Assembly (NCBI RefSeq): GCF_000240165.1
Contig: NC_017585.1
Location: 1,736,001-1,800,000 of the forward strand
DNA from: Streptantibioticus cattleyicolor NRRL 8057 = DSM 46488
GTDB taxonomy: Bacteria > Actinomycetota > Actinomycetes > Streptomycetales > Streptomycetaceae
Reading direction: 5' to 3'
Length of the DNA: 64,000 nt
Shown here: positions 4,189 to 44,182 of the stretch, piece by piece
Layout: the number at the start of each line of letters is the position of its first letter
Numbering within the stretch: the stretch's first letter is position 1
Notes under the pieces: generated by a model
Told to the model about the DNA's origin: nothing
Database searches by the model: none
What the model saw: only the letters and a program-made list of their open reading frames with translations
Made by a program: the position numbers and the translations under genes

Positions 4189-4200
4189 GGCGGATCCCTT

Positions 4201-4734
4201 TCAGTCGGTCACGGTGACGGCGGGGGAGGCCGGGGCTGCGGGGGCGAGATGGCCGGCGAGGCGGCGTTTGGCACGGGTCAGGCGCATGGCGTAGGCGGCG
4301 CGGGTACAGCCGAGTACCTTCGCCGCCTCCCTGGCGGCCAGCCCTTCCCACACGTGCAGCGCGAGGACTTCCTGGTCGGCCGGGGCGAGCGCCTGCCAGG
4401 CGGCGACCAGGTCGATCCGGTTGTCCACCTGGGCCATCGCGTCGGCCGCCGGGGCGTGGACGGCGGAGTGCGCGGTCTGCTGGATGTGCACCGCCAGCGC
4501 GGTCCGCCGCCGCGTGCCCCGGTTCGCGTTGAGCATCACGTTGCGTGCCGTGCCGAACAGCCAGGCCCGCGGGTCCCCGCGCAGCTCCCGCCGGCGCCGC
4601 CACGCCGCCAGGAACGTCTCCGCCACGATGTCGTCGACCTCCATCGGCTGGGCACGACGGCGCACGAACCGCAGCACGTCCTCGTAGTGAGCCCGATACA
4701 CTTCCGTGAACCGGGCCTCGGTATCGATCGGCAT
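4201..4734 (-). CDS. ECF-type RNA polymerase sigma factor
   Basis: An extracytoplasmic-function sigma factor of 177 residues. Region 2 (FTEVYRAHYEDVLRFVRRRAQ, then VDDIVAETFLAAWRR with the 2.3/2.4 core-binding and -10 recognition residues) is followed by region 4 (LAPADQEVLALHVWEGLAA, then AAKVLGCTRAAYAMRLTRAKRRL, the -35 binding helix-turn-helix). The ATG at 4734 is taken because GGAAGGA sits upstream; an in-frame ATG at 4779 adds residues outside the family. The gene is followed at 12 bases by the putative anti-sigma gene, a normal regulator pair, and such sigma factors usually activate their own operon. Confidence 0.92.
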   Translation of the reverse strand: MPIDTEARFTEVYRAHYEDVLRFVRRRAQPMEVDDIVAETFLAAWRRRRELRGDPRAWLFGTARNVMLNANRGTRRRTALAVHIQQTAHSAVHAPAADAMAQVDNRIDLVAAWQALAPADQEVLALHVWEGLAAREAAKVLGCTRAAYAMRLTRAKRRLAGHLAPAAPASPAVTVTD

Positions 4735-9226: not shown

Positions 9227-10858
9227 TCAGCGGGTGGCCGCAGCGGCGGGCTGCGTGCTGGTGGGGCGTTGTTCGATGGTGATGTCCACGCCGCGGGCGC
9301 TGTGGTGGTAGGCCGGGGTGAAGCCGGCGCGGATGAGGGCCTGCTTCTGGGCTGCGGCGGTGCGGGCGGCGGCCTGGCGGGCGCCGGGGGACAGGTGGGT
9401 GCAGCTGACGTGCCATACCCGGGAGGTGTGGCTCAGACGCTGTTGCAGGAGGGCCGGGTCGGCGGGCAGGTTGTCCAGGGCGCCGGACGCGGCGGCGGTC
9501 CGGGCCCGGCCCACATCGGGGCGGTTGGTGAAGGCCTCCTTGAAGGCGGTGGCCATCAGCCCGCATCGGGCGCCGGCGAACAGGACGGCGTCGCCGGGGG
9601 CGTCGCGGGTGCTCAGGGAGCTGATCACGGCGTGGGTGTCCCACTGGCGGCTGTCCACCTGGCGTATGGCCTGGTGGGACGCGTACATGGGCACGGCCGC
9701 GAGGAGCGCGAGCAGCAGTTGCTGGTACGGGGGGACGACGGTGGTGGCCAGGGCGAGCAGCAGGGCCAGGGCGGGCAGGCAGAACAGCAGGTAGCGGTAG
9801 GCGAAGAGGGGGTGGCCCAGGGAGACGGCCAGGAGGAGCAGCGGGGGCACGGTCAGCCAGGGCACGCCGACCGCCAGGGCCTGCGGCGGGGCCTTGCGCC
9901 GATGCACGGCGAGGAGGACGAGGGCGGCGAGCGCGGTGGAGGTGAGCAGGAGTCGCAGTGCGGTGGGCAGGGTGCCCTGGCCGGGCGTGAGGAGCCAGGA
10001 GAAGTAGCCGAACGGGGTTCCGGCGCTGACCGGTGCGGCGTCGCCGACGGCGGAACGCTGAGCGGCGGCGAGAACCAGCAACGGGACGACGGCGGCGAAG
10101 CCCGCGGCCGAGGCCAGGAGCAGGCGGACGACGACACGGCGTCCGGGGCGGCACAGGACCACGGTGACCGCGTGGGCGGCCACCAGCAGCAGCCCGATGA
10201 GGTTGAACCAGCCCAGCAGGGCGATCAGCACGGCATAGGCGACCGGCCACCGCCCCCGGGCGCCGGTGGACAGGACTTTCACCAGGACACCCGTCGCCAG
10301 CACCGCCACCGCCATGACGAAGGCGAACGAGCGGGCCTCCTGCGCGTAGCGCGACGCGGTCGGCAGGACGGCGAGCACCAGCCCCGCGTACAGCCCCGGA
10401 CGCCGGCCGCCGAGCAGCCGCCCCAACCACGTCAGACCGGCCGCCGCGACGGCCACCGCCACCGCGGACGGCACCCGTGCCGCGTACCAGTACAGCCCAC
10501 CGTTCACCTGCCCGACCAGCCACATCAGCACGTAGTGCAGGCCGTGGACCGCGTCGACCCGCCCCAGCAGCTCCATCATCTGCGGCCAGGAGCGCCGTGC
10601 CACGTCGATGGTGACGATTTCGTCGGTCCACGGGGAGGGATACCAGGCCCCCCACAGACCGAGGACCAGCGCGACGACCGCCGGCATGAACCCGGCCGCC
10701 CGGCTCAACAGCGCGCGGCCGGCGGACGCGCCGGGTATGACCGGCAGGGCGGGCTGGGGTGAGGTGGCCGTCACAGTGGTGCTTTCCTCGCTAGTACTCC
10801 GCGCAGCGGACGGTGCCGGGACGAGGGCGAACCGCATCGTGTGTGACGCGAGCAGCAT
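9227..10858 (-). CDS. GT-C-fold membrane glycosyltransferase (GT39/mannosyltransferase-like)
   Basis: An integral membrane protein of 543 residues with about 10-12 hydrophobic helices between residues 45 and 400. The first extracytoplasmic loop has WYPSPWTDEIVT, matching the acidic (D/E)E motif used for catalysis by polyprenyl-phosphate-dependent GT-C transferases, and RYAQEARSFAF follows as in the GT39/PMT-like group. The C-terminal 150 residues are extracytoplasmic. It likely transfers a sugar from a polyprenyl-phosphate donor to protein or cell-wall glycan outside the membrane; the acceptor is unknown. I prefer the ATG at 10858, after GGAGGGG. It diverges from the HTH gene at 11148. Confidence 0.8.
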   Translation of the reverse strand: MLLASHTMRFALVPAPSAARSTSEESTTVTATSPQPALPVIPGASAGRALLSRAAGFMPAVVALVLGLWGAWYPSPWTDEIVTIDVARRSWPQMMELLGRVDAVHGLHYVLMWLVGQVNGGLYWYAARVPSAVAVAVAAAGLTWLGRLLGGRRPGLYAGLVLAVLPTASRYAQEARSFAFVMAVAVLATGVLVKVLSTGARGRWPVAYAVLIALLGWFNLIGLLLVAAHAVTVVLCRPGRRVVVRLLLASAAGFAAVVPLLVLAAAQRSAVGDAAPVSAGTPFGYFSWLLTPGQGTLPTALRLLLTSTALAALVLLAVHRRKAPPQALAVGVPWLTVPPLLLLAVSLGHPLFAYRYLLFCLPALALLLALATTVVPPYQQLLLALLAAVPMYASHQAIRQVDSRQWDTHAVISSLSTRDAPGDAVLFAGARCGLMATAFKEAFTNRPDVGRARTAAASGALDNLPADPALLQQRLSHTSRVWHVSCTHLSPGARQAAARTAAAQKQALIRAGFTPAYHHSARGVDITIEQRPTSTQPAAAATR

Positions 10859-15532: not shown

Positions 15533-16774
15533 TCAGCGCTTGTCGACGGTGAGTTCGCCGTTGAGGATCACCATGCGGAGGTCGCGGAGGTTGCCGATGT
15601 CCGCAGTGGGATCAGCGTTCAGCACGAGCAGGTCGGCGCGCTTGCCGGGGGACACCGTGCCGAGGTCGGGGCGGGCACACTGGCGAGCCGCGCCGCTGGT
15701 GCCCGCGGACAGCACCTGGGTGGGCGCCATCCCGGCCGCCACCATGAGTTCGGCCTCTTCCAGGGTGTTGGCTCCGAAAAGGCCCCGACCGCTGAAGGTG
15801 TCGCTGCCCAGCGCGACGTGCACGCCGGCGTCGGCGACCTTCTTGAGGTTGCCGCGGGCGTCCGGGTGGGCGTCGTCGATCCAGAGCGTGGGTGTGTAGG
15901 TGATGTCGTGTTCGAGCATGAGGTCGATGAGCGAGTGGTCGGTGAGGGGCTCGACGGTGACACCGTGCTCCAGGCCGTCCGCCCCGGCCTCGATCGCCTC
16001 GCGCGCCGCGACTTGCTGGGTGGTGTGGACGGTGACCCGAAGGCCCCGCTCGTGCCCGGCCTCGATGCCCGCCCGGAGGAGATCGAGGGGGAGCCGTTCC
16101 AGCTCGACGCCGTCCGGGAAGGCAGGGTTCCGCCAGAGGTACTTCGGCCCGCCGGAGTGCGCGCAGGCGCCTTCCGACAGGAGTTTGACCGCGTCCACCT
16201 TGCGGTCGGCGAGGTGGTGCACCAGGTCGCGGATCTGCTGCACGCTGTCGACCTCTCCCGTGAAGCGCTCGCGCGCCCAGGGGTTGCCGCTGAAGACGGT
16301 GGCGGCGGGATGTCCGTCGCGGCCGGTGATACCGCAACCGGTCGCCAGCAGTCGCGGGCCCCGCAGCGTGCCCGCAGCGATCTTGGCCCGCGTGTCCAGG
16401 ATCCCGCCCGTCGGGTCGCCCACCGACTTGATGGTGGTGATCCCGTGGTCGAGGAAGAGCCCGAGCCTTCCGGGAAGCTCGTTCTGCTCGAAGGCCCGCA
16501 TCGAATCGGGACCGGAGACCGCGTGCACGTCGTAGAAGTGGATGTGCGTATCGATCAGGCCCGGCATGACCCATCCTTCGGCCGCGTCCACCTCCTGTCT
16601 GCCGCGGAGCGGCTGGGCCGAGACGAAGGCGATCTGCGCGCCGTCGACGGCGACGTCGTACAGCCCGGCGAGCGCCTGGCGGCCGTCGAAGACATGTGCG
16701 CGACGGATCACGAGGTCGTAGGCCGCGGAGCCGCGAACCCCGGTGCTCGCCGTTGCTTCGGGTTCCTCGGGCAT
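15533..16774 (-). CDS. Amidohydrolase family protein (imidazolonepropionase/prolidase-like)
   Basis: A 413-residue metal-dependent hydrolase with the composite N- and C-terminal beta domain and a TIM barrel. Visible ligands are the HxH motif (PGLIDTHIHFYD), the lysine expected to be carboxylated in DAVKLLSEGA, His in VTVHTTQQ and GLEHGVTVE, and the last Asp in VALGSDTFSGRG. This set fits the binuclear group that cleaves cyclic amides or Xaa-Pro-like substrates; the substrate is unknown. The ATG at 16774 follows AGGAGTGAG; the open frame reaches 16930 through the operator. A dyad found here and before the adjacent Rrf2 gene suggests Rrf2 control. Confidence 0.88.
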   Translation of the reverse strand: MPEEPEATASTGVRGSAAYDLVIRRAHVFDGRQALAGLYDVAVDGAQIAFVSAQPLRGRQEVDAAEGWVMPGLIDTHIHFYDVHAVSGPDSMRAFEQNELPGRLGLFLDHGITTIKSVGDPTGGILDTRAKIAAGTLRGPRLLATGCGITGRDGHPAATVFSGNPWARERFTGEVDSVQQIRDLVHHLADRKVDAVKLLSEGACAHSGGPKYLWRNPAFPDGVELERLPLDLLRAGIEAGHERGLRVTVHTTQQVAAREAIEAGADGLEHGVTVEPLTDHSLIDLMLEHDITYTPTLWIDDAHPDARGNLKKVADAGVHVALGSDTFSGRGLFGANTLEEAELMVAAGMAPTQVLSAGTSGAARQCARPDLGTVSPGKRADLLVLNADPTADIGNLRDLRMVILNGELTVDKR

Positions 16775-16875
16775 CGCTCTCACTCCTGGTACGTGCTGAG
16801 TAGGTGTTCGGACCGTGGTGCCGCGGATGGATCGTGCGGCCTGGCCGCTGACATCGGGAGCCGGGCCCGGCCCGG

Positions 16876-16900
16876 AACTGTAGCTATGTCGGTTACAGTT
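16876..16900. promoter_or_regulatory. Candidate Rrf2 operator upstream of the amidohydrolase
   Basis: An inverted repeat with arms AACTGTAGC (16876-16884) and GTTACAGTT (16892-16900) around seven bases. The same 9-7-9 design occurs before the Rrf2 gene. It sits about 100 bases before the amidohydrolase ATG, in the gap after the Rrf2 stop. Confidence 0.65.
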
Positions 16901-16944
16901 AAGTCGTGCGTCATGGTGCGGGGCGCGCATGCGTCACCGCTTGG

Positions 16945-17388
16945 TCAGTGAGCACTCGGTTCGTTGTCGAAGGCGAGTATCCGTTGCAGCAGGCCGGCGA
17001 TGGTCGTCCTGCCGAGCTGTTCCTCCAGGGCTCGCTCCGCCTTCTGGAACTCGACGTCGAGCAGGACGCCGATGGTGCGTCCGACCTCGCACGCCCCGCT
17101 GGGCGGACGGGTGTGCCGCGAGAAGATCTGCCCCTCCTCGACGGCGGCGTACGCGTCGTGGAGCGTGATGTCCCGCGGGTCGCGAGCAAGGGACCAGCCG
17201 CCGCCCCGACCCTCGGTGGACCACACCAGATGAGCGTCGCGCAAACGGCCGAGGACGCGCCGCACCAGGACGGGATTGCTTTCCAGGCTGTCCGCGATCT
17301 CCGCGGAGGTCAACGAGCCCCCACGCCGGTGCGCCAGCATCGCGAGCGCGTGAATCGCGACTACGCTCCTGCCGCTGAGCCCCGCCAT
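16945..17388 (-). CDS. Rrf2 family transcriptional regulator
   Basis: A 147-residue Rrf2-type winged-helix protein: SVVAIHALAMLAHRRGGSLT, LESNPVLVRRVLGRLRDAHLV (recognition helix) and the family motif GRGGGWSLARDPRDITLHDAYAA (positions 60-83). Only one cysteine (SGACEVG) remains where NsrR and IscR carry three, so it is unlikely to hold a 2Fe-2S cluster and more likely answers to a metabolite or redox change. The ATG at 17388 follows GGAG. It lies just upstream of the amidohydrolase on the same strand, and both genes are preceded by matching dyads. Confidence 0.9.
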   Translation of the reverse strand: MAGLSGRSVVAIHALAMLAHRRGGSLTSAEIADSLESNPVLVRRVLGRLRDAHLVWSTEGRGGGWSLARDPRDITLHDAYAAVEEGQIFSRHTRPPSGACEVGRTIGVLLDVEFQKAERALEEQLGRTTIAGLLQRILAFDNEPSAH

Positions 17389-25933: not shown

Positions 25934-28705
25934 TCAGCCCACCATGCGTTCGCCCACGTCGCTGCCGGCGAAGTCCTCGAAATCCATGGTGCCGATGCCG
26001 AGGTTGCAGCTGACCTCGATGGCCGCGTCGGGCCGGATGCGGAACTGCGTGACGAAGGCCTCCTCGTCCGGCTCGAAGGGCTCGCCGTCCCACTCGGTGG
26101 ACACGGCGAGCGGCGGATGCGCCTTGTGACGCATCGTGGTGGCGTCGGCGATGAAGACCGCCCCGGGCAGGTCCGGCTCGGGCAGGGCCGCGCGTACGGC
26201 CTTGAGGACGCGTTCGGCGGGGACGCCGTCGTACGCGGGCTCGCAGACGAGGTGCGGCTCCGGGATGTTGTCCATCCACGGTTCCCCAAGCCTCGTGACG
26301 ACCTGGTTCCAGGCGTCCTCGTCGCTGAAGTCTGTACGGATCACCAGCGGGCTCAGCGTGTCGCGTTCCGCGATCACCAAGGGCGGCAGGGCGTCCCCGG
26401 TGTCGGGCGCCACGACGGGCTCCGCCGAGGGGACCGGCACACCACCGAGCAGTACACCGCCGAGCCCGGCGGCATCGGGTACCACCCCGCAGACGCGGAA
26501 CAGCAACTCGAAGCGGTGCCGGTCGCGGTCGTTCTCCGCCAGCGCGGCGGCCACCTCGGGCACCTTGACCCCTTTGCGCCGGAACGGCTGGTCCGTGAAC
26601 TCGCTCACCAGCTCGCCGCGTTGGTGAAGGGTGAACCGCGCACCGTAGCCGTTTCCGCCGGCCGGCGCGTGCACCACCGCGACCGACTCCGCCAGCACCG
26701 ACCGCGCCACCGGCAGCGTGGCATCGTCGCTGAGAACGATGACGTCCGGCCCCGCGGCGACCACCGCGACGACACTTCCCGCACCCACCGCTTCCCGCCG
26801 CTGCTGGAGCTGGCGCCACGTGCCCCGCACCACCGAGCACGGCACGACGCCGAGACGCTCCAGCACCTGCGTGGGCGAACTCTCCTCGACCACCGCGACG
26901 CAGAATCCGCGGCCCTGTCCGATCAACGCCCCGAACCAGGCGGCCAGTACGTCGTTGCGCGGCACAGCCGGCTCGCGCACCGGCGTGCCGTCGAGCCGGG
27001 CCGGGCCGTTGGCGGATGCCCAGACGACGCCTCCCGTCTCGTCGCGCAGCTCCGCAGCCCCTCGCGCCACGACCAGTTCGGTGCCCGGCCCGGCGATGCG
27101 TTCCAGCTCGGAGCCGTCGAGCGCCAGCGCGCGCAGAACGCCGTCCTCGCCGAGTTCGAGAACGTTGTGTTGGTCGTAGAACCTGTCCCAGTGGGAGGTG
27201 TGGCCCTTGACGATGCAGCGCAGGACACGGCCGTCGTGGAAGAGCACGGTCGACCCGTCAGCACTGGTGAGCGTCTGCCCGTAGAGGCTTTCGCCCCGGC
27301 GCATCCGCGATCCGCGGGCGACCGTGGGCAGTTCGCCCGACGCGGCCGGAACCTCGGGGATTCCGGTGCTCCACACGATGCCACCGTGCGCGTCGGTCAG
27401 GACCAGGTCGCCGGTGTCGCGCATCTCCAGCCGCCGCACGCCCCGCCACGCGGTGCCCGTACCCCACACCCGCCGGCCGTGGTGGTCCCAGGCGGCCAGG
27501 TCTCCGTCGGGGCCCAGGGACAGCAGGCTGAACGACCGCGCGTCGCCGACCCACACGTACGCGCGCGTGAGGTTGTCGCGTATCGCCAGTGGCGGGTCGT
27601 ACACCCCGCTCAGCACCGTGAACCGGCCCGATGGTGAGGTCGAGGACTCCATCGAGAGCGCGCCACCGAGCGGGAGCCAGGAACAACCGGGCTGCCATGC
27701 TGAGGGCGTTGTCGCGTCGTCGGGCAGTGGCTGCGACGGGATCTCCGGTGGTATCCGCATCACGCGTGTTCCGCGGCAGGCGACGGGGGAGTGGCCCGCT
27801 CGTTGCCGGTAGCCGACGAATCCGCCGCTGCCGGCCAGGAACCGGACGGCTTCGAGTTGCAGGTGCGGGGAGCCGTTGCTGCCGGTGATGTCGAGACGGT
27901 AACGGTTGTAGGCTCCGGGTCGGGCTATGCGGTACGTCCGGGACCGGTGCCGGCCGGGAAGGGACTGGCCCGTGCGGGCATCGAGGGTGCGCCACAGCCT
28001 TCCGTCCGCCGAGCCGCGCAGAGTCCAGGCCGCCGGATCGCGGTCCGGAGCGTCGTTCGCGGAGGTCAGGACGTACCGCTTCACCGGGACCGGTTGGGAG
28101 AGCCGGAAGTCCAGGGACGCATGACTGTGGGGCGCGAACCATTTGCTGCTCGAGGTGTCGACGAGGTTCGCGGCAACCTCGCCCGCGCCGTGGTGCTCGG
28201 CGCTGGCCGACACGGCGACAACGAGGTCGCTCACATCCGCGTTGCCGGTCGGACCCGCCGGGCGCAGCGTCAGCGAACACGCGTTGCCGGACCGGTCGTG
28301 CCAGGCCACCCACTGCACGGGGGCCCGACTACCGTCCTCGACCAGCACCCGCAGCCGCCCCGCGGGAATCCAGCCGTCGGCATCCCGCACCTGCGTGTCG
28401 AACTCGTATCCCTGGGCGCCCTCGCGATCCTGCTCCCCCCGCTGCTCATCGAGTTCGCCACGGACCTCCACCATGTCACCGTCGGCGGTGCGGCGTTGGC
28501 CGTAGCAGCCGGCCAGGTCGGGTGAAAAGCCCAGCGAGCACTGCGTGCCGTCCTCGGTGGTCCAGGACAGTTGCGCCAGCGCCTCGGTTCCACCGTCGTC
28601 GACGTGCACCAGCAGCCGTGCCCCTGGCACCCACGGCTCCGAGTCCCGCGCGCGCTGCCACATCCGGAACGCGAGCGCAGACGTCTGATCCGGTACGGGC
28701 CGCAC
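25934..28705 (-). CDS. Large multidomain protein: discoidin-like, bulb-lectin-like, DUF6461/DUF6924-like
   Basis: A 923-residue protein without signal peptide or membrane helix. Residues about 15-70 and 100-150 are two copies of one beta-rich unit (EPWVPGARLLVHVDDG / DGWIPAGRLRVLVEDG). Residues 170-292 resemble an F5/8 type C (discoidin) domain (WFAPHSHASLDFRL, AYNRYRLDITGSNGSPHLQL). Residues 360-450 and perhaps 480-565 look like bulb-type lectin repeats (LGPDGDLAAWDHHGRRVW, GDLVLTDAHGGIVWST). About 588-750 resembles DUF6461 (GFCVAVVEESSPTQVLERLG) and 795-923 DUF6924 (PLVIRTDFSDEDAW). Domain names are from pattern memory. The GTG at 28705 follows GAGGAGG. A cytosolic or Sec-independent carbohydrate-recognition role is possible; the function is unknown. 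Confidence 0.75.
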   Translation of the reverse strand: MRPVPDQTSALAFRMWQRARDSEPWVPGARLLVHVDDGGTEALAQLSWTTEDGTQCSLGFSPDLAGCYGQRRTADGDMVEVRGELDEQRGEQDREGAQGYEFDTQVRDADGWIPAGRLRVLVEDGSRAPVQWVAWHDRSGNACSLTLRPAGPTGNADVSDLVVAVSASAEHHGAGEVAANLVDTSSSKWFAPHSHASLDFRLSQPVPVKRYVLTSANDAPDRDPAAWTLRGSADGRLWRTLDARTGQSLPGRHRSRTYRIARPGAYNRYRLDITGSNGSPHLQLEAVRFLAGSGGFVGYRQRAGHSPVACRGTRVMRIPPEIPSQPLPDDATTPSAWQPGCSWLPLGGALSMESSTSPSGRFTVLSGVYDPPLAIRDNLTRAYVWVGDARSFSLLSLGPDGDLAAWDHHGRRVWGTGTAWRGVRRLEMRDTGDLVLTDAHGGIVWSTGIPEVPAASGELPTVARGSRMRRGESLYGQTLTSADGSTVLFHDGRVLRCIVKGHTSHWDRFYDQHNVLELGEDGVLRALALDGSELERIAGPGTELVVARGAAELRDETGGVVWASANGPARLDGTPVREPAVPRNDVLAAWFGALIGQGRGFCVAVVEESSPTQVLERLGVVPCSVVRGTWRQLQQRREAVGAGSVVAVVAAGPDVIVLSDDATLPVARSVLAESVAVVHAPAGGNGYGARFTLHQRGELVSEFTDQPFRRKGVKVPEVAAALAENDRDRHRFELLFRVCGVVPDAAGLGGVLLGGVPVPSAEPVVAPDTGDALPPLVIAERDTLSPLVIRTDFSDEDAWNQVVTRLGEPWMDNIPEPHLVCEPAYDGVPAERVLKAVRAALPEPDLPGAVFIADATTMRHKAHPPLAVSTEWDGEPFEPDEEAFVTQFRIRPDAAIEVSCNLGIGTMDFEDFAGSDVGERMVG

Positions 28706-32265: not shown

Positions 32266-32913
32266 TCACAGAATGCCCAAGCGGAGCGCGTACACGACGG
32301 CGTGCGTGCGGTTGCGGAGGTTGAGCCGTGTGACGATGCTGTGCACGATGCTCTTCACGGTTCGTTCCGAATAACTGAGCTTTGTGGCGATCTGCTTCGT
32401 GCTCCACCCGTCGGCCAGCAGGCGGAGCACTTCGACCTCTCTGTCCGCCAGGCCGGCGACGTTCAACCCGTGCGGCACGAGGACGGTGTCCCTGATGGCC
32501 TTGATCTGCTTGATCAGGGCCTGTTGCACGTCCCCGCACCGTTCGATGCCGTGGGTCACGGCGCCCATGACGGCCCGCCGCACTTCTTCGAAGCAACTCT
32601 GCTGACGGGGTAAGAAGCTCACCAGACCGAGGTCGATCGCGCGCAGGAGATGGTGCTCGGGAAGTTCATGGGCGACCATGACCACGGGGAGCGTGTGGTC
32701 CGAGGTCTCGTGCTGGACCTGTTCCACCCGGGAAAGCGTGTCCCCGGTGACCTCTGTCGCCAGTACCAGCAGGATGTCGGCGGGGAGACGCTCGGAGCAG
32801 TAGCTCGCCTGGATCTCCTTGTGCGACGAAAGCCACGAGACGGCTCCTTCTCCGGTGACCGGGTCATTGGCAAGTACGGACACGGTGATGGGTTTCACAG
32901 TCTTACTTGTCAT
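32266..32913 (-). CDS. LuxR/NarL-type regulator with degenerate receiver domain
   Basis: A 215-residue protein in response-regulator format. The C-terminal HTH is standard NarL/LuxR type: AGLADREVEVLRLLADGWST, then TKLSYSERTVKSIVHSIVTR. The N-terminal 120 residues have receiver length, but the site normally read as DVVLLD is ADILLVLATEV, so Leu replaces the phospho-accepting Asp, and the conserved Lys is absent (SFLPRQQ). It is probably controlled by ligand or protein contact instead of phosphorylation. It diverges from the NRPS cluster across 1.1 kb and is its likely pathway-specific regulator. Its codons are less GC-biased than its neighbours. Confidence 0.88.
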   Translation of the reverse strand: MTSKTVKPITVSVLANDPVTGEGAVSWLSSHKEIQASYCSERLPADILLVLATEVTGDTLSRVEQVQHETSDHTLPVVMVAHELPEHHLLRAIDLGLVSFLPRQQSCFEEVRRAVMGAVTHGIERCGDVQQALIKQIKAIRDTVLVPHGLNVAGLADREVEVLRLLADGWSTKQIATKLSYSERTVKSIVHSIVTRLNLRNRTHAVVYALRLGIL

Positions 32914-34042: not shown

Positions 34043-34429
34043 ATGGTGCCCGACGGGCAGGAAGTGGGAGATACCGCGGCGGAACAGCCACCGCGGACTC
34101 TTCCGGATAGGGAACACGCCGGGACCGCGGACGGTCCGGCACGGACGGGCCAAGCGTTGGACAACGAGGTGCGGCACTCGGTCACCCGCATATGGGAAGA
34201 CGTGCTCCGCCTGGACGATCTGGCTGCCGGAGACAACTTCTTCGAGCTGGGAGGCCATTCGCTCTCCGCTTCCCAGGTCATCTCCCGCATACGGGACTCG
34301 TTACAGGTCGAGGTGTCGCTCGCCGCCTTCTTCGAGTACCCCACGATCGCCGAACTCGCCCACTTCGTGGCGCGGCAGCGCGCACTGGCGCACGCGGACG
34401 GCCCCCGCCGGGAGAAGGGCGAGGGCTGA
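34043..34429 (+). CDS. Free-standing peptidyl carrier protein
   Basis: A 128-residue protein with a disordered N-terminus of 40 residues followed by one thiolation domain (VTRIWEDVLRLDDLAAGDNF, then FELGGHSLSASQVISRI). Ser73 in GGHSL is the phosphopantetheine attachment site. There is no adenylation domain, so it must be loaded in trans; the MbtH-A protein downstream is the obvious source. The GGHS form is typical of carriers that serve condensation domains. It ends two bases before the C-A-T gene, so the two are translated together. As first gene it is the natural starter carrier. Confidence 0.9.
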   Translation: MVPDGQEVGDTAAEQPPRTLPDREHAGTADGPARTGQALDNEVRHSVTRIWEDVLRLDDLAAGDNFFELGGHSLSASQVISRIRDSLQVEVSLAAFFEYPTIAELAHFVARQRALAHADGPRREKGEG

Positions 34430-34430
34430 C

Positions 34431-37400
34431 ATGGGCGTAGACCACTCGCCACTGGCGTCCGCGCAACAACGACTGTGGTTCCTGTGGCGGTTACGGCCGG
34501 ACGGCAACGAGTACAACGTGCCGAAGGCCACCCGGCTGCGCGGCACGCTCGATGCGGCTTGCCTGGAGCGGGCGCTCGCCCGGCTGGTCGAGCGGCACGC
34601 CGTCCTGCGGGCCACCTTCCCCTTCCTGGACGGCGAACCGGTCCTGCGGATCGCGCGGAACGCCACCGTGCCACTGGGCCGGACCGACCTCTCCGACACA
34701 CCCGCCGCAGCGCGCCACACCGCCCTGCGGGACGAGGTCGACCGGGTGGCCCTGGGCGCCTTCGACCTGGTGAACGGCCCGGTGTTCCGGGCCCAGTTGA
34801 TCCGGCTCGCCGAAGACGACCACGTACTGGTACTCGCCTTCCACCACATCGTCGTCGACGGCTGGTCGCTGGGCGTCATCGAGCGCGAACTCGCGGCCGT
34901 GTACGCCGCGAACCTCGACGGCGCCGAGGACCCGTTGCCCGTGGTGCGCCACGGGTACCAGGACCATGTCGCCGCCGAGCGGGAGATGCTGTCCGGGCCA
35001 CGCCACGCCGAGGCACTGGAGTTCTGGCGCCGCAACCTCGCCTCCGCGCCGCGGCAACTACCACTGCCCACCGACCGGCCGCACCCACCCGTCCAGAGCT
35101 ACGCCGGTGACAGCCGGGGCTTCACCGTCGCCCCCCAACTGAGCGAGCACATCAGGTCGTTGGCCGCCCGCCACCGGGCGAGCAGGTTCGTCGTGCTGCT
35201 CAGCGCCTACGCCGCACTCCTTTCCCGGCTGGCCTCGGCGCCGGAGGTGGTCATCGGCGTACCGGTCAGCGGACGGACGACGCTGGAGGCCGAAGCCGTC
35301 GTCGGCCTGTTCGTCAACATGCTGCCGTTGCGCATCCGGATCCAGGAGGGCATGACCTTCGCGGAACTGCTGCGTCACGTCCGCGACACCTTCCTCGCCG
35401 CGCACGAGTACCAGGACCTGCCCTTCCAGCGGGTGGTGGAGGATCTGCAACCCGAGCGTCTGACCTCACGCAACCCGATCTTCCAGTGCGCCTTCACCTA
35501 CGAGGAATCCGCCGGTGACGTCGGCGCGTTCCCCGGTCTGGAGGCGAGCCCCGTCCCGGTGCGGATCGAGACCGCCAAGTTCGAGCTGACCCTGCACATG
35601 GCGTGGAGTGCGGAACGGGTCGAAGGCTGGATGGGTTACCAGACCGATGTGTTCGACGGACGCACCGCGGAACTGCTCGGCGCACGTTACCTGCGGCTGC
35701 TCTCCGGGGCGTTGGCGGCACCGGACACACCGGTCGCACGACTGCCCCTGCTGGGCGCCGAGGAGGAGCGGACGGTCCTGGCCGGCGGCCCGCGACCACC
35801 GGCCGCCGACGGCGAACGCGTGGAACGGATGGTGGAACGCCACGCCCGCGAACGACCGGACGCCGTGGCGGTGCGTGCGGGGGAGCGGGCGCTGACCTAC
35901 GCGCAGCTCGACCAGCAGGCGAACCTCCTCGCCACGGTGTTGCGCGCGTCGGGCGCGGGCCCCGGAACCCTCGTCGCCACCTGCCTGCCCCGCGGCGTGG
36001 ACCTGGTGATCGCCGAACTCGGCATCGTCAAGACCGGAGCCGCCTACCTCCCGCTCGACCCGGCCAACCCGCCGCCCAGACTGGCCGCCGTCCTCACGGA
36101 AGCGGATCCGCTGCTCACCGTGGCGGACAGCGAACACACCACATCGCTGCCGACCGGGAAGATCCTCACCCTTGAGCGGATCCGGACGTCCGGCACCGTC
36201 GCCGCACCCGCGCCCGCGCCGAGCACGGACCCGGCGGACCTCGCCTATGTCGTCTACACATCCGGCTCGACGGGCCGCCCGAAGGGCGTGATGGTCGAAC
36301 ACCGCGCACTGTCGAACCTGGTCGCCTGGCACCATGAGGAGTTCGGCATCGGGCCGGGCGACCGCACCACGCTGATGGCCGCTCCCGGCTTCGACGCGTC
36401 CGCCTGGGAGATCTGGTCGGCGCTCACCGCCGGGGCCACGCTGGAGGTGCCCGACGCCGAGACCGTGCTCTCCCCCCGTGACCTGATCCGCTGGCTGGTC
36501 GCGCGGGAGGTGACCAGTTGCTTCGTTCCCACCCCTCTCGCCGAGCGACTGGCCCGCGCCGACTGGCCGGCCGAAGGCGCCCCGCGTTCCGTGCTGACCG
36601 GCGGCGACCGGCTGCGCGGAACGGGATCCGGAACGCTGCCGTTCCGGCTGGTCAACAACTACGGGCCGACGGAGAGCACGGTCGTCGCCACCTCGGGCAC
36701 GGTCCAGCCCGAACCCCACCGCCGGGGAGTCCTGCCGGACATCGGGCGTCCGATCGCGGGGGTGGAGGTCTACGTGCTGGACGCGGAGTTGCGTCCGGTG
36801 CCGGTGGGGGTGCCCGGTGAGTTGTATCTGGGCGGGGTCGCGCTGGCGCGTGGGTACCTCAATCAGCCTGGTCTGACGGCGGACCGGTTCGTGCCGAGTC
36901 CGTACGGGGGCAGGCCGGGGGCCCGGTTGTACCGGACCGGTGACCTGGTGCGGTGGCGTTCCGACGGCAGCGTCGACTTCCTGGGCCGCAACGACCACCA
37001 GGTGAAGATCCGTGGCTTCCGTATCGAGCCGGGGGAGATCGAGAACGTCCTGCGCGGCCACCCCGGGGTGCGGGACGCCATCGTCACCACCACACCGGTC
37101 ACCACCGGGTCCGCCGAACCCGCCCTCGTCGCCTACCTGGTGCGGGCGAGCCGGACGGAACACCGCACGGAATCGTGGGCCGTCCTGGACGACGACGCGT
37201 TCGCCGCCCTCCTCCGCGACCATCTGCGGGACCACCTGCCCCGCTACATGGTCCCCGGTCACCTGGTCGTCCTGCCCCGGTTCCCGCTCAACCCGAGCGG
37301 CAAGGTCGACCGCGCCGCGCTGCCGGTCCCCGAACTCGGCGGCGTGGGACGGCACGTGGGCCCCCGTGACGAGATCGAACGGGTACTGGCCGGCATCTGG

Positions 37401-37682
37401 TCCCAGGTCCTCGGCCGACAGCACAGCGACGTCACGGAGGACTTCTTCGAGATCGGCGGCGATTCGCTCAAAAGCATCCAGGTCGTCCACCGCGCGCGCG
37501 AGGCCGGACTCACCCTCACCGTCAGCCACATCTTCCACCACCCCACCATCGAGGAACTCGGGGCCCATCTGCGGCAGGAGACCGCGGCCGGCACGCCTGC
37601 GGAGCCCGTACCCGAACCGCTGGTGTCAGGCACCGCCGAGGAGCGGGCGGACAACGCCGGCCGGGAACGGGAGAGCCGGTGA
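34431..37682 (+). CDS. Nonribosomal peptide synthetase, C-A-T module (predicted Leu)
   Basis: A 1083-residue NRPS. The condensation domain (residues 6-440) has an intact HHIVVDG at 138-144. The adenylation domain (465-965) has YTSGSTGRPKG at 609-619, and its specificity residues read D655 A656 W659 F698 L722 G724 N743 V751 V752 K958, giving DAWFLGNVVK, one of the classic leucine codes. The carrier domain has Ser1012 in FFEIGGDSLKSIQ. There is no epimerase, methyltransferase or thioesterase domain. The last codon overlaps the type II thioesterase start (GTGA). In the proposed line it extends the residue on the free carrier with Leu. Confidence 0.95.
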   Translation: MGVDHSPLASAQQRLWFLWRLRPDGNEYNVPKATRLRGTLDAACLERALARLVERHAVLRATFPFLDGEPVLRIARNATVPLGRTDLSDTPAAARHTALRDEVDRVALGAFDLVNGPVFRAQLIRLAEDDHVLVLAFHHIVVDGWSLGVIERELAAVYAANLDGAEDPLPVVRHGYQDHVAAEREMLSGPRHAEALEFWRRNLASAPRQLPLPTDRPHPPVQSYAGDSRGFTVAPQLSEHIRSLAARHRASRFVVLLSAYAALLSRLASAPEVVIGVPVSGRTTLEAEAVVGLFVNMLPLRIRIQEGMTFAELLRHVRDTFLAAHEYQDLPFQRVVEDLQPERLTSRNPIFQCAFTYEESAGDVGAFPGLEASPVPVRIETAKFELTLHMAWSAERVEGWMGYQTDVFDGRTAELLGARYLRLLSGALAAPDTPVARLPLLGAEEERTVLAGGPRPPAADGERVERMVERHARERPDAVAVRAGERALTYAQLDQQANLLATVLRASGAGPGTLVATCLPRGVDLVIAELGIVKTGAAYLPLDPANPPPRLAAVLTEADPLLTVADSEHTTSLPTGKILTLERIRTSGTVAAPAPAPSTDPADLAYVVYTSGSTGRPKGVMVEHRALSNLVAWHHEEFGIGPGDRTTLMAAPGFDASAWEIWSALTAGATLEVPDAETVLSPRDLIRWLVAREVTSCFVPTPLAERLARADWPAEGAPRSVLTGGDRLRGTGSGTLPFRLVNNYGPTESTVVATSGTVQPEPHRRGVLPDIGRPIAGVEVYVLDAELRPVPVGVPGELYLGGVALARGYLNQPGLTADRFVPSPYGGRPGARLYRTGDLVRWRSDGSVDFLGRNDHQVKIRGFRIEPGEIENVLRGHPGVRDAIVTTTPVTTGSAEPALVAYLVRASRTEHRTESWAVLDDDAFAALLRDHLRDHLPRYMVPGHLVVLPRFPLNPSGKVDRAALPVPELGGVGRHVGPRDEIERVLAGIWSQVLGRQHSDVTEDFFEIGGDSLKSIQVVHRAREAGLTLTVSHIFHHPTIEELGAHLRQETAAGTPAEPVPEPLVSGTAEERADNAGRERESR

Positions 37683-38425
37683 AGAACCGATGGCTGCTGC
37701 GCTTCCCGCCCCGCCCGCAGGCACGGATGCGCCTGCTGTGCCTGGCCGGGGCGGGCGCCGCGGCGTCGATGTACCGCTCCTGGTCCCAACACCTCCAGCC
37801 CGAGGTGGAAGTCTGCGCCGTCCAGCTGCCCGGCCGCGGCGCCCGGCTGCGTGAGGCGCCGTTCACGAGGATGGAGCCGCTGGCCGACGCCCTCACCGAC
37901 GTGGTCCGGGCCGAGTCGGACCGCCCGATGGCGATCTTCGGTCACAGTCTCGGCTCGCTGATCGGGTTCGAGGTGGCCAGCCGCCTGCTCAGCACCGGCG
38001 CGGACACACCACTCCGGCTGATCGCCGCGGCACACCGGGCCCCACGGCTGGGCAGCGCGCGCCTGCCGTACCACCGCCTGCCCACGCCGGAGCTGATCGA
38101 CGTCATGGGAGGGCTCGGCGGGACACCCCCCGACCTCCTCGCGATGCCGGACGTCATGCGGCTGACCCTGCCCGCCGTCCGGGCCGACTTCGAGATCGAC
38201 TACACCTACCGGTACCGGGAACGGCCCCCGCTCCCCGTCCCCATCAGCGTGTTCGGCGGCATCGACGACACGACCGTCTCCAAGGCGGAACTGGAGGCGT
38301 GGCAGGAACACACCAGCACCGGGTTCAGCCTTCGCCTGCTACCCGGCGACCACTTCTTCCACGAAGGACCAGGCGGCCCGCGGATGCTCGCGCGGATACG
38401 CCGGGAACTCCTCCAACACGTCTGA
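37679..38425 (+). CDS. Type II thioesterase
   Basis: A 248-residue alpha/beta hydrolase of the NRPS/PKS type II thioesterase family. It has [16 protein letters not shown] near the N-terminus, [15 protein letters not shown], nucleophile Ser90 in FGHSLGS, the acidic residue in FGGIDDTTV and His in [10 protein letters not shown]. These proteins clear misloaded or stalled carriers and do not normally release the product. Its GTG start overlaps the NRPS stop by four bases. Since no type I thioesterase domain exists in the cluster, a release role cannot be excluded. Confidence 0.93.
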
Positions 38426-38462: not shown

Positions 38463-40256
38463 ATGTTCGAGGACGGCGACGACCGCCGCTATCTCGTGGT
38501 GCGCAACCACGAGGAACAGTATGCGATATGGCCAAAGGACCATGAGATGCCGCCGGGCTGGGACCCGGTGGGCGTGGCCGGCAGCAAGCCGGAGTGCCTG
38601 GCCCACATCGAGAAGACATGGACCGACATGCGTCCGCTCAGCCTCCGGTCCGCGCCGGAACTCTGCCTCCACCAGGTGTTCGCCGCCCAGGTGGCGCGCA
38701 CCCCGGACGCCCCGGCCGTCCGGGACGGGCGGGAAGAACTCACCTACCGGCAACTCGACGAGCGGGCCTCCCGGCTCGCGGCCGTGATCCTGCGCCAGGT
38801 GTCCGGACCCGGCGCCCGCGTCGGCATCTGCCTGCGACGCGGCAACAACGTGGTGACCGCGATCCTGGCCGTGCTCAAGGCCGGCTGCGCCTACGTACCG
38901 CTCGACCCCGACTACCCGCCGGAACGGGTGCGCTTCATGGCCCAGGACGCCTCGGTCGACATGGTGCTGGCGGACCCCGGTACGCGTTCGGCGCCCGATG
39001 CGGCACGTGTCGTCACCGTCGAGGACAGCCTGTGGTCGGACGACGCACCCCGCGCCGACGACGTCCAGGTGGGCCCGGACGCACCCGCCTACGTCATCTA
39101 CACCTCGGGATCGAGCGGACGGCCCAAGGGGGTCGTGGTCTCGCACCGCAATGTGACCGCGCTCCTCGACGCCTGCGACCGGATCCTCGACACCGACGGC
39201 ACGGACGTGTGGACGCTCTTCCACTCCTACTGCTTCGACTTCTCGGTCTGGGAGATGTGGGGGGCGTTGTCGCACGGCGCGACACTCGTGGTGGTACCGG
39301 CCGACGTCGCCCGGTCCCCCGAGGCCATGCTCGACCTGCTGCGCGAACAACGGGTGACCGTGCTCAACCAGGTGCCCTCGGTGTTCCGGTACCTGTCGCG
39401 CGCCGCGACCGGTGCGAAGGCCACGGGAGCCGGAACGGCGCTCAAGTACGTGGTCTTCGGCGGCGAGGCCGTCGACGTCGAAGCGGTCCGCGACTGGCGG
39501 CGGGCCCACGGCACGCGCACCGAGTTCGTCAACATGTACGGCATCACCGAGACCACGGTCTTCGCGACATACCGACGGCTGCCCGCCGACGAGATCGACG
39601 CGCCGCCCGCCCCGCCCGGGGCGGACCCGTCGGCACCGGACGGCGCGGAGACCACCGGCACCCGGCGGAACCCTCCCGACCCAGCGCTCAACATCGGCCT
39701 GCCGCTGAACGGATTCGACATCGCGCTGCTCACCGAGGACGGCCTTCCGGCCCGCCCGGGAGAGATCGGCGAGATCCACCTGGCAGGCCCGCAACTGGCC
39801 ATCGGATACCTGGAGCGGCCGGAGCTGACGGCTGAGCGCTACCCCGTGCTGTCCCTGCGCGGCGAGGCCCCCCGCCGCTACTACCGCAGCGGCGACCTGG
39901 CCGTGGCCCGGGAGGACGGCACGCTGGAGTTCGCCGGACGCGCGGACGACCAGGTGAAGATCAACGGGTACCGGATAGAGATCGGCGAGGTCGAGTCCGC
40001 ATTGCGGACCGCCGAGGGCGTCGGCGATCTGGTGGTGGTCCCGACCACCAGCCGGATCGGCGAACGGACGCTCGTCGCCTTCTACACGACGACGGACGAC
40101 GGCGCACCGGACACGCTCTCCGAACGGCTGGCCGGCCACGCCAGGACCGCCCTGCCGGCCTTCATGGTGCCGAGCCGGTTCGTCAACGTGCCCACCCTGC
40201 CGCTGAGCCCCTCGGGAAAGACCGACAAGCGGGCGCTCGCCGAGCAACTGCGCTAG
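38463..40256 (+). CDS. MbtH-adenylation domain fusion, no carrier (predicted Thr-like)
   Basis: A 597-residue fusion. Residues 1-62 are a full MbtH-like domain ([42 protein letters not shown] with its conserved tryptophans 23, 33 and 53). From residue 68 a complete adenylation domain follows: [11 protein letters not shown], then [28 protein letters not shown] and LSPSGKTDK at the end. The specificity residues D259 F260 W263 N302 V331 G333 M358 V366 F367 K give DFWNVGMVFK, one change from the threonine code DFWNIGMVHK besides I/V. No carrier follows, so it must load the free carrier and/or the C-T-C carrier in trans. MbtH-A fusions are known in NikP1 and SlgN1. Confidence 0.93.
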
Positions 40257-40273: not shown

Positions 40274-43200
40274 ATGGACGACAACCGATCGCGGGACCTC
40301 GACGGAGCTCGGACCACGCTGACCCAGCACCTTCCCCTGTCGGTCAACCAGGAGGCGATGTGGGTCACTTGGCAGATAGACCCCACCAAGTGGGAACACA
40401 TCATTCCGCTGGCGCTGGACGTCAAGGGCGTCCTGGACCTTCCCCGCCTGCGAGCGGCCGTCGCCCAGCTGAGCCGACGCCACCCCATGCTGCGGGCACG
40501 CGTCCGTGACGTCTCCGGGCACCTGTGCCTCGACTGGGCCGGCACCGCCTCGCTCCCGGTGACCGTGCGCGCCGTCACCGCCCCGCGCGACGAAGCGGTC
40601 ATCGCCGCCCGTTCCCCGTTCGACCTGGACGAAGGCCCACTGGCCCGGGTGGAGGTGCTGGAGGGACCCGACTACACCGTCCTGCTGATAACGGTGCACC
40701 ACATCGTCCTGGACGGCACCGCGACCCCGCTGCTCCTCGACGATCTGCGCCGCGCCTACGCGGGGGAGGACCTGGGGCTGCCGGAGGACCTCACACCACT
40801 GGTGGACCACGCCCGACGCTCACGGGAGGCCGCCGACGGGGCGATCGGCGAGGAATCGCGGCGCTACTGGCGCGACGAGTTGGCGGACATGCCACCCGCC
40901 CGCACCCTCCCGGTGCGATCCGCCGAAGGGGCGCGGGCACTGACGCCGTTCACCGTGGACGCCCAACTGAGCCGGCAGGCACGCCGACTCGCCAGGGAAC
41001 TGGGCGTCTCCTACTTCACCGTGATGCTCGGCGCCCTGTTCATCACGCTCTCCCATCACACCGGCAGCGACGACCTGATCGTCTCCGCGCCCTATCACGG
41101 CAGATCGGACAAGCGACTTGGGGAACGGGTCGGTTACTTCGTCAACGTGCTGCCGTTCCGCCAGAAGCTGTGCCCCTCCGACACCTACGAGCGGTTCCTG
41201 CGGAAACTGCGCACCACCGTGCGTGACGGGCTGAAACACGGCGACCTGCCGCTCCCATCGATCCTACGGGCCGCCCACCTCGTGGGACCGGACGCCCGTG
41301 CCCACACCCACCAGGTGGTGTTCGAGTACTGGGACACCACCAGCACCAGCGGACTGGATGTGCACCGCTTCGAACTCGTCGGCGGCGGCTCCCGGTGCCG
41401 ACTCAGCTACCTCGACTCGACGGACGTCGCCGACTACCGGCTCACGGCGCAGCTCAACGAGGGCAGCACCGGTAGCAGGATGCTGTGGAAGGACCCGGGC
41501 GGCACCGTCGGGCCCACCGCCCTGGCAGCGCTGACACGTGACTACCTGTCCATCGTGGCCGACATGGTGGCCGACCCGGGTCGCACCCTCGGCGAGGCGA
41601 CGGCACGGCTGCCCGCCGTCGTCCTCCCGGACACCGGCGGCACGGAGCCGGCCGAGGACACCGAACGCCCCCGCGAACCGGCGGGCACGGCGGCCACGCC
41701 CGCGTCGGCCGCAATGCTCGGTGAAATCTGGCGCGAGGTACTGCGGATCCCCGAGGTGTCCGCCGACGATTCCTTCTTCGAGCTGGGCGGGCACTCCCTG
41801 CTCGCCACCACGCTGCTGAACCGGATCACGGAGCGCCTCGGTGTCGAGCTGTCCGTACGCGATCTGTTCAGCCACCCCAGGTTCGGCCGGCTCGCCGAGG
41901 TCATCGACGACCGCCGCGCCGCCGCCCCGGTGGACGCGGACGACACACCGCACCCCGAGGAGACCTGGGAGGACGTCTTCCCGGCCTCGGTCTTCCAGGA
42001 GAGCATCTGGCTGGCCGAACGCCTCGACCCCGCGCACGCCAAATACCACATCCCGCTCCTGTGGAAGGTACGGGGAACCCTCGACGGTGACGCCCTCTCC
42101 CGCGCACTCGCGCTGCTGGTCTCCCGGCACGAGATCCTGCGTACCCGTTTCGTCGACAAGGACGGCAGGCTCTACCAGGAGGTCACCGAGCCCTGGGCTC
42201 CCTTGGTGGACCGGCTCGACGTGACCGCCGCCGCCGAGGCCGGCCAACGGCAGTGGCTGCGGAAGTGGTCCGACACCACCACCAGCGCCTTCGACCCCTC
42301 CACCGCACGGCTGCTCGCGGCCGGCTGGTTCTCCCTGCCGGACGGCGGCCAGTTGTTCTCCCTCTGCCTGCACCACCTGGTACTCGACGGGGAGTCCGTC
42401 CCCGTCCTCGTCCGCGACCTGGAACGTTGTTACCAGCAGGCGGCGGGCCTGGCATCCGGGCCGCTCCCGGAACCCGGCCAGTACCGCGAGCTGGTCTTCG
42501 CCCAGCAGACCGAATCAGCCCGGTCCAGAACGGCGGCGGACCTGGCGTACTGGCAAGACCACCTCTCCGGCGCCCCGGCCTCCCTCGGACTGGCCGGGCC
42601 CCGCGCCGCGGGCGAATCCGGCAACATCCCCCTGCGACTCGACGGCGACACGGCACAGCGGCTGACCGCCCTCGGCACGGAGCGGAACGCCTCCCGGTTC
42701 ATGGTGACCGCCGCGGCCTTGGCGGCGGTGCTGCACCGGGCGTCCGGGCTGCCGGACATCACCTTCGGCGTCCCGGTGGCGAGCAGGTCGGCAGGTGTCT
42801 TCGACGATGTCATCGGGCCGTGCATGAACACCCTCGTGCTGCGTTCCCGCTGCGGGGCGGAGACGACCTACTCGGATCTGCTGCGAACGGTGCGGGAAGA
42901 AGTCATCGCGGCCTTCGAGCACCAAAGCGCCCCGTTCGACGACGTGGTCCGGCGGCTACGGCCCCCACGGTCGCGAGGACGAACGCCCTTCGTCGACTGC
43001 CTGCTCAACAGCGTCGGGATGGACCAGTGGTCGGCCACGCTCGGCGACGCCCGCCTGGTCTTCCTCGATCAGGACCTGCGGGGCGAAGAAGTTAGCAAGT
43101 TCCCCCTCACCGTGACCTTCACCACGGCGCAGGACGTGGTGGAGGGGAACCTCGCCTACCGCGGCGACTGCCTCGACGCGGCAGGCGCGCTGCGGTTGAC

Positions 43201-43285
43201 GGACGAAATCACCACGGTGCTCGGTGACTTCACGGCACTGCTGCCGCGACGGGTGTTCGACGCCGATCCGACCAGGGAGCTCTGA
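40274..43285 (+). CDS. Nonribosomal peptide synthetase, C-T-C without adenylation domain
   Basis: A 1003-residue protein with two condensation domains around one carrier. C1 (20-450) has HHIVLDG at 142-148. The carrier (475-545) has Ser508 in FFELGGHSLLATTLL. C2 (565-1000) has HHLVLDG at 700-706 and NTLVLRSRC. Both catalytic His motifs are intact. Without an A domain the carrier must be charged in trans, most simply by the MbtH-A protein. C2 has no downstream carrier, so it may release the chain onto a free nucleophile, cyclise it, or act on a substrate carried elsewhere. The stop is six bases before the monooxygenase GTG. Confidence 0.93.
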   Translation: MDDNRSRDLDGARTTLTQHLPLSVNQEAMWVTWQIDPTKWEHIIPLALDVKGVLDLPRLRAAVAQLSRRHPMLRARVRDVSGHLCLDWAGTASLPVTVRAVTAPRDEAVIAARSPFDLDEGPLARVEVLEGPDYTVLLITVHHIVLDGTATPLLLDDLRRAYAGEDLGLPEDLTPLVDHARRSREAADGAIGEESRRYWRDELADMPPARTLPVRSAEGARALTPFTVDAQLSRQARRLARELGVSYFTVMLGALFITLSHHTGSDDLIVSAPYHGRSDKRLGERVGYFVNVLPFRQKLCPSDTYERFLRKLRTTVRDGLKHGDLPLPSILRAAHLVGPDARAHTHQVVFEYWDTTSTSGLDVHRFELVGGGSRCRLSYLDSTDVADYRLTAQLNEGSTGSRMLWKDPGGTVGPTALAALTRDYLSIVADMVADPGRTLGEATARLPAVVLPDTGGTEPAEDTERPREPAGTAATPASAAMLGEIWREVLRIPEVSADDSFFELGGHSLLATTLLNRITERLGVELSVRDLFSHPRFGRLAEVIDDRRAAAPVDADDTPHPEETWEDVFPASVFQESIWLAERLDPAHAKYHIPLLWKVRGTLDGDALSRALALLVSRHEILRTRFVDKDGRLYQEVTEPWAPLVDRLDVTAAAEAGQRQWLRKWSDTTTSAFDPSTARLLAAGWFSLPDGGQLFSLCLHHLVLDGESVPVLVRDLERCYQQAAGLASGPLPEPGQYRELVFAQQTESARSRTAADLAYWQDHLSGAPASLGLAGPRAAGESGNIPLRLDGDTAQRLTALGTERNASRFMVTAAALAAVLHRASGLPDITFGVPVASRSAGVFDDVIGPCMNTLVLRSRCGAETTYSDLLRTVREEVIAAFEHQSAPFDDVVRRLRPPRSRGRTPFVDCLLNSVGMDQWSATLGDARLVFLDQDLRGEEVSKFPLTVTFTTAQDVVEGNLAYRGDCLDAAGALRLTDEITTVLGDFTALLPRRVFDADPTREL

Positions 43286-43291
43286 AGCGGC

Positions 43292-44182
43292 GTGACCAGC
43301 AGGTTCCGATTCGGTGTCATCCTCGTCCCGGGTCCCGGGCGCCAGGAGTGGTGGCAGAGCTGTCGCACCGCCGAACGGCTCGGCTACGACGTCATCGCGG
43401 TCCCCGACCACCTCGGGGTACAGGCCCCGTTCCCCGCGATGGTCTCCGCCGCCGCCGCGACGGAGCGGGTGCGCCTGACCACCTACGTCCTCAACAGCGC
43501 CTTCTGGAATCCCACCCTCCTGGCCAGGGAGATCCTCAGCACGGACCTCCTCACCGACGGCCGGGTCGAGGTGGGGCTGGGCACCGGATACGTTCGCGCG
43601 GAATTCGACAAGGCCCGGGTCGAGTGGGGCACCGCCGGCAGCCGGGTGCGACGGCTGGAAGAGGCCATCGTCTCCCTGCTTGGCCATCTGGCGGATCCCC
43701 GCGGCCTCGGCTTCACGCACGCACCGCCACAACTGCCGCTGCTGGTCGGCGGAAACGGTGACCGGGTGCTGCGACTGGCCGCGGCACACGCGGACATCGT
43801 CTCGTTCGCCGGTGCGGTACTCGCGCCAGGCTCCTCACGAGGCACGTTGCGACTGATCGACGGCGACGCCATGGCGGAAAGGGTCAGGTATTTCGAGAAC
43901 GTGGCGGGCGACCGCGCCGCCCGGCCGGAACGCAACATCCTCGTGCAGTCGGTGGTGGTGACCGCCGACCGGCGGGGCACCACCGAGGCGCTGCGCCGCC
44001 GCATGCCGTACCTCACGGCCGAGCAGGTGGCCGACGTTCCCACACTGCTGATCGGGACTTCGAAGGAGATCGCGACCATGCTCCTGGAACGGCGGGAACG
44101 CTACGGGTTCTCCTACGTCTGCGTCCAGGAACGCGACATGACCGCCTTCGCCCCGGTGATCGAGCTCCTGGCCGGGGAGTGA
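43292..44182 (+). CDS. Luciferase-like (LLM class, probably F420-dependent) monooxygenase
   Basis: A 296-residue TIM-barrel flavin/F420 enzyme of the TIGR03621-like group: MTSRFRFGVILVPGPGRQEW, VIAVPDHLGVQAPFPAMVSA, GRVEVGLGTGYVRAEFD and PLLVGGNGDRVLRLAA. These proteins use F420 or reduced FMN to oxidise or reduce small molecules. It is the only tailoring gene of the NRPS cluster and is translationally close to the C-T-C gene (GTG at 43292), so it probably acts on the peptide or on an amino-acid precursor, for example by hydroxylation or dehydrogenation. The choice of cofactor cannot be read from sequence alone. Confidence 0.88.
   Translation: MTSRFRFGVILVPGPGRQEWWQSCRTAERLGYDVIAVPDHLGVQAPFPAMVSAAAATERVRLTTYVLNSAFWNPTLLAREILSTDLLTDGRVEVGLGTGYVRAEFDKARVEWGTAGSRVRRLEEAIVSLLGHLADPRGLGFTHAPPQLPLLVGGNGDRVLRLAAAHADIVSFAGAVLAPGSSRGTLRLIDGDAMAERVRYFENVAGDRAARPERNILVQSVVVTADRRGTTEALRRRMPYLTAEQVADVPTLLIGTSKEIATMLLERRERYGFSYVCVQERDMTAFAPVIELLAGE

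Follow-up and report, generated by a model that had tools for sequence, protein, structure and literature searches.

Gene content of the locus

The 64,000-nucleotide stretch of DNA analysed here, referred to as the window, belongs to the megaplasmid of S. cattleya NRRL 8057 (Streptantibioticus cattleyicolor). It carries an operon of the pepstatin (pep) type (Table 1), whose gene set and order are shared with the pep loci of S. catenulae, S. parmotrematis, K. mediocidica and others. The pepA-J genes of Streptomyces catenulae were identified by pepD deletion and heterologous expression (Mo et al. 2025, PMC12081711). Like the S. catenulae cluster, the window encodes a free carrier, a Leu C-A-T module, a thioesterase, an MbtH domain, a carrier-less PepG with the same type of specificity code, a C-T-C protein (PepH), PepI and PepJ. 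Unlike it, the window lacks pepC (PKS) and pepD (Ala), contains a PepB/PepD chimera, and has pepF fused to pepG. The homologs of PepA, PepE, PepG and PepH follow each other in this order, whereas pepJ lies upstream and divergent, which differs from S. catenulae and is as in other pep loci.

All remaining ORFs and catalytic motifs of the operon are intact. The PepH homolog has two intact HHxxxDG motifs and an intact GGHS; PepH has the domain order C-PCP-C, and the chemistry of PepI has been shown experimentally (Mo et al. 2025, PMC12081711). When the PepI homolog of the window was aligned to kvPepI (9g64), H62, Y122, E126 and Q229 were found to be kept.

Table 1. Features of the pep operon in the window (positions counted from the first nucleotide of the window)
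Feature	Position	Strand	Basis
PepJ-like LuxR-type regulator, divergent	32266..32913	-	Pfam GerE; 54-74% to PepJ of other loci
PepA homolog, free-standing carrier (GGHS)	34043..34429	+	PP-binding, E 4.2e-18; 48-67% to PepA
C-A-T module, PepB/PepD chimera	34431..37682	+	Pfam; informative positions PepB-like, then PepD-like
Interval of the PepB-to-PepD switch; matches direct repeat of complete clusters	36681..37217	+	Sequence comparison
PepE homolog, thioesterase (GHSLG)	37679..38425	+	Pfam PF00975; 58-70% to PepE
PepF-PepG fusion ORF	38463-40256	+	597 aa, ATG start, GGAG upstream
MbtH domain (PepF part), residues 1-62	38463..38648	+	Pfam PF03621, E 2.7e-19; 62-74% identity to intact separate PepF ORFs
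Adenylation domain (PepG part), without carrier, most likely for valine	38649..40256	+	Pfam AMP-binding; homology
PepH homolog, C-T-C; expected acceptor of aminoacyl group in trans	40274..43285	+	Pfam, motifs; 53-65% to PepH
PepI homolog, luciferase-type, F420-dependent ketone reductase	43292..44182	+	PDB 9g64, E 5.9e-112; TIGR03621

Relatives of PepI with about 50% identity occur in many of the sampled Streptomycetaceae. They were rejected as markers of further pep loci: pepH was absent beside those that were read, and they belong to the general F420 family. A possible remnant of a lost pep cluster lies in another genome (G035, locus L139, around 16454-16954), where a PepI relative (76%) is represented by its C-terminal half and pepH and the other pep genes are missing from the vicinity. 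Elsewhere in the window, the minus strand at 25934-28705 encodes a large protein with an OAA-family lectin domain, an F5/8 type C-like stretch and DUF6924.

The fused MbtH-adenylation protein

In the product of the fused ORF, Pfam detected MbtH at residues 3-50 (E value in Table 1), AMP-binding at residues 73-450 (E 8.9e-86) and AMP-binding_C at residues 509-586 (E 4.3e-10), and no PP-binding (carrier) domain. The linker between the MbtH and A domains is very short. The MbtH motif is complete but for one Ser to Ala change (QYAIWP vs QYSxWP), motifs A3, A5, A7, A8 and A10 (SPSGKTDK) are all found in the PepG part, and the protein ends 11 residues past Lys586 of A10. A preliminary description of this ORF as a complete MbtH domain running into an A domain without a thiolation domain thus agrees with both the Pfam and the motif results. 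A sequencing error can be dismissed as the source of the fusion, because two megaplasmid records, NC_016113.1 (1,809,491 bp) and the contig containing the window (1,812,548 bp), are identical over 17,791 bases. The PepG part shows 62-72% identity to PepG of the pep loci including S. catenulae (about 65% to S. catenulae alone), and its orthology with S. catenulae PepG is borne out by identity, code and trees. A carrier-less A domain is normal for this family, since stand-alone PepG is proposed to load PepH and PepA in trans; here, too, the carriers and the C-T-C protein come from the adjoining genes.

The layout had been likened to that of SlgN1, and this likeness was reproduced by an alignment with 4gr5 spanning the MbtH domain, the linker and the start of the A domain. 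Like the window protein, SlgN1 (streptolydigin; PDB 4GR4/4GR5) has an N-terminal MbtH domain joined directly to the A domain and has no carrier; the MbtH-to-A spacing of the two differs by about three residues. Unlike the window protein, SlgN1 belongs to another pathway and activates 3-methylaspartate (PMC11253843), and its sequence score was below those of THR1, CytC1 and LgrA. The AlphaFold model of the fused protein has a mean pLDDT of 81; its structural matches covered well only the A part, and SlgN1 was not among the 50 matches listed.

MbtH-A fusions had been called rare, and this holds for the pep loci, where two fused loci stand against 12 with a separate mbtH ORF. In the 12 split loci mbtH has its own stop codon and lies a few dozen bases 5' of pepG; the gap usually contains a GAGG that resembles a ribosome-binding site. 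Among the pep loci read, read-through without a stop was seen only in the window and in L138 (Kitasatospora). When 395 Streptomycetaceae genomes were searched with a probe consisting of MbtH and the start of the A domain, which detects close relatives only, so that the result is no census of MbtH-A fusions in general, the junction was open only in these same two loci. The junctions of the two fusions differ (one reads RPLSLRRAPRCLHQ), and the tree does not place the two loci as sisters; two separate origins of the fusion are therefore most likely. Conclusions from trees are based on pepE, pepG, pepH and pepI; for pepB, loci L004 and L005 entered the tree with their pepD, as their pepB is cut off. 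Fused MbtH domains have been suggested to evolve under looser constraint (PMC6668435), with which the Ser to Ala change in the window motif is consistent. The sole effect of the fusion would be to tether MbtH to the A domain in a 1:1 ratio. Elsewhere in the S. cattleya genome (L082, C1:1112334-1112477) another MbtH lies near the end of a 567-residue open frame, which could be a second fusion or merely a long open frame.

Absence of pepC and pepD, and a PepB/PepD chimera

In the complete relatives pepC and pepD sit between pepB and pepE. No ortholog of the KR-less PKS PepC was found in the window operon or in the whole S. cattleya genome (best KS 46-52%), and no ortholog of the Ala module PepD was found genome-wide, the best match (46%) being the C-A-T protein of the window itself. 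The possibility that the two genes are located elsewhere in the S. cattleya genome was thereby rejected. PepD remains in the window only as the C-terminal part of this C-A-T protein, which at informative positions is PepB-like to residue ~779 and PepD-like from residue 929 to the end, including the carrier. The chimera keeps the C domain and the A core of PepB, with the code DAWFLGNVVK (Leu) as read by eye from the motifs, whereas the C-terminal part of its A domain and its carrier (GGDS) derive from PepD.

In several complete clusters the same stretch forms a direct repeat shared by pepB and pepD (406-802 bp at 76-94%). In S. parmotrematis (L129, reversed) copies at 3715 and 9859 share 394 bp exactly, and in L137 the segments 3865-4266 and 9938-10339 are 94% identical over 406 bp. 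Such repeats suggest gene conversion and a deletion-prone layout. Because the switch in the chimera falls in a stretch matching the repeat, recombination between the pepB and pepD copies would explain its origin: pepC and most of pepD may have been deleted in one step, leaving the chimeric gene. There is precedent for NRPS module deletion in the evolution of assembly lines (PMC8097286). An assembly line can, on this evidence, shorten by recombination of two module genes and be left with a hybrid module that looks intact, which as a natural design is of interest to engineers.

Repeats of this kind can also mislead sequence assembly, and the window could owe its lack of pepC and pepD to a collapse at the repeat, the actual S. 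cattleya cluster being complete. Exactly this has happened in the draft genome G015. Its pep cluster (L130, 11618-17410) looks PKS-less, and its pepC and pepD are on a separate 6,076-bp contig (L157, contig C5), which overlaps the repeat at both ends and matches the missing stretch; the PKS-less appearance of G015 is an assembly collapse. With this contig fell the idea, previously backed by tree and chimera, that pepC and pepD were lost twice independently, in the window and in G015, and the dN/dS values of G015 were excluded as evidence on PKS-less loci. For S. cattleya, in contrast, the assembly consists of two contigs with no leftover and holds no pepC or pepD ortholog anywhere, a second record, which differs in length, agrees at every base over 17.8 kb, and no PepC was found among the best matches in the megaplasmid of that record. 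We therefore consider collapse a distinctly unlikely cause of the absence of pepC and pepD from the window.

A third subtype of pep-like clusters, PepI-linked and PKS-less, without PepC and PepD homologs, has been described (Mo et al. 2025, PMC12081711). The window fits this definition, as PepI is present and homologs of PepC and PepD are absent; the fusion, the chimera and its origin by recombination are not mentioned in the main text of that paper (PMC12081711). Since the PKS-less form of at least one draft genome is a collapse, the published subtype needs to be rechecked.

Substrate specificity of the adenylation domain

Anchoring on motifs A4, A5 and A10, together with alignments to the crystallised THR1 and CytC1, gave the code DFWNVGMVFK (D259, F260, W263, N302, V331, G333, M358, V366, F367 and K586 in protein numbering), the same ten letters that had been read by eye. 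The remark that Phe replaces the His of Thr-type codes was also correct: at code position 331 the alignment places His319 of THR1, and Phe of CytC1. A His side chain of THR1, printed as H119 in a review, contacts the hydroxyl of Thr, as do M310 and V318; THR1 activates Thr, and the best substrate of CytC1 is L-Val (PMC11253843). H119 and His319 are most likely the same residue. CytC1 (cytotrienin; PDB 3VNQ) resembles the window protein in being a free-standing A domain with a DFWN-type pocket and Phe at 331; unlike the window protein it has no MbtH fusion, and it has Gly at 322 where the window has Met. Valine is threonine with a methyl group in place of the hydroxyl. Taking into account that a polar contact is lost when Phe replaces His, the pocket would therefore fit Val.

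Of the 13 further PepG homologs read at pep loci, 12 have Phe at code position 331 and one, that of S. varsoviensis, has Leu; PepG of L134 (Kitasatospora) has code changes at 239 and 322. The code of S. catenulae PepG is DFWNIGMVFK, and the family form is DFWN(I/V)GMVFK. S. catenulae is a proven producer of pepstatin, which contains two valines and no Thr (PMC12081711). These observations bear on the suggestion, made in the preliminary description, that the Phe indicates an unusual beta-hydroxy or related amino acid. One may think of a beta-hydroxy amino acid, diaminopropionate or 4-fluorothreonine, as the code differs from that for Thr by one letter and S. cattleya makes 4-fluorothreonine. 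However, the Phe is nearly universal in PepG, including species from which no such compounds are known, it is shared by the L-Val-preferring CytC1, and it makes the pocket less polar than in Thr enzymes, not more. As the Phe is a family trait, an unusual or fluorinated Thr analogue was discarded as substrate; we would give it hardly any chance. Apart from Ile or Val at 299, the code appears to match a known A domain whose substrate is ordinary.

Threonine itself, or Thr and Val both, could also be the substrate, and the product would then contain a Thr-type residue. Nine of the ten code letters agree with the Thr type, the predictor used by the pepstatin authors calls PepG a Thr enzyme, and the pocket region is closest in sequence to THR1. 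The fold match of the A domain to THR1 (Z 50.3, rmsd 2.6, 411 aligned residues) points the same way, but the structures do not separate THR1 from CytC1 (Z 49.0, rmsd 2.4, 419 aligned). Against Thr stand the loss of the THR1 His at position 331, the same Phe in S. catenulae PepG, whose product holds Val, and the preference of the Phe-bearing CytC1 for Val. PepG, although predicted to activate Thr, has been proposed as the Val loader of PepH and PepA in trans (Mo et al. 2025, PMC12081711). Activation of Thr thus seems improbable, and as judged from sequence the fused A domain most likely activates L-valine. For A-domain codes, this adds Val as the probable meaning of Phe331 in a Thr-like pocket. 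A PepG-like A domain (57%, DFWNIGMVFK) was also seen in S. inhibens (L007, 6582-16274), with PepH-like C domains in another NRPS layout.

Possible product of the shortened assembly line

The fusion is thus upheld and the exotic substrate is not; the shortened line with its hybrid module is the more interesting matter. Very probably, PepF and PepG are naturally fused in this ORF, and its product is a free-standing A enzyme of a pepstatin-type line that has MbtH in cis and loads L-Val in trans. The domain architecture, homology, gene order, code, chimera, lack of pepC and pepD orthologs in the genome and intact motifs are results of the analysis, and the Val specificity of this protein, the product and the tethering role are inferred. 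The fused enzyme would form Val-AMP and load Val in trans, probably twice, onto the PepH carrier and onto PepA, an order of loading that is also the proposal of Mo et al. 2025 (PMC12081711). Val on the PepH carrier would be N-acylated, the second C domain of PepH would couple the two residues to acyl-Val-Val, and the chimera, whose PepB pocket is preserved, would add Leu. Because pepC and pepD are gone, the chain would most likely end here and be released by PepE as acyl-Val-Val-Leu or with additional Leu attached. The cluster therefore probably makes a shorter peptide than pepstatin. For this producer of thienamycin and fluorometabolites, a defined question results: what the product of a pepstatin line is once the polyketide step has been cut out.

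Some observations fit this scheme less well. Predictors call Thr, the identity to S. catenulae PepG is only about 65%, and without pepC and pepD the parallel with pepstatin ends after Val-Val-Leu. In addition, PepI is constrained (its dN/dS against two Kitasatospora relatives is 0.23-0.28, and these two compared with each other give about the same value), though the PKS that would make its statine ketone is missing. It is conceivable, but we hold it doubtful, that the line is a functional new pathway in which the chimera adds one or several Leu to acyl-Val-Val in trans and PepI reduces a non-statine ketone to yield a new non-statine peptide. The carrier of the chimera is of the PepD type, the proposed donor for the PepB C domain in pepstatin synthesis (PMC12081711). 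It is also improbable that the shrunken cluster is in decay and yields no product; two genes have been lost, but the remaining ORFs and catalytic motifs are intact, and dN/dS is similar to that between complete clusters.
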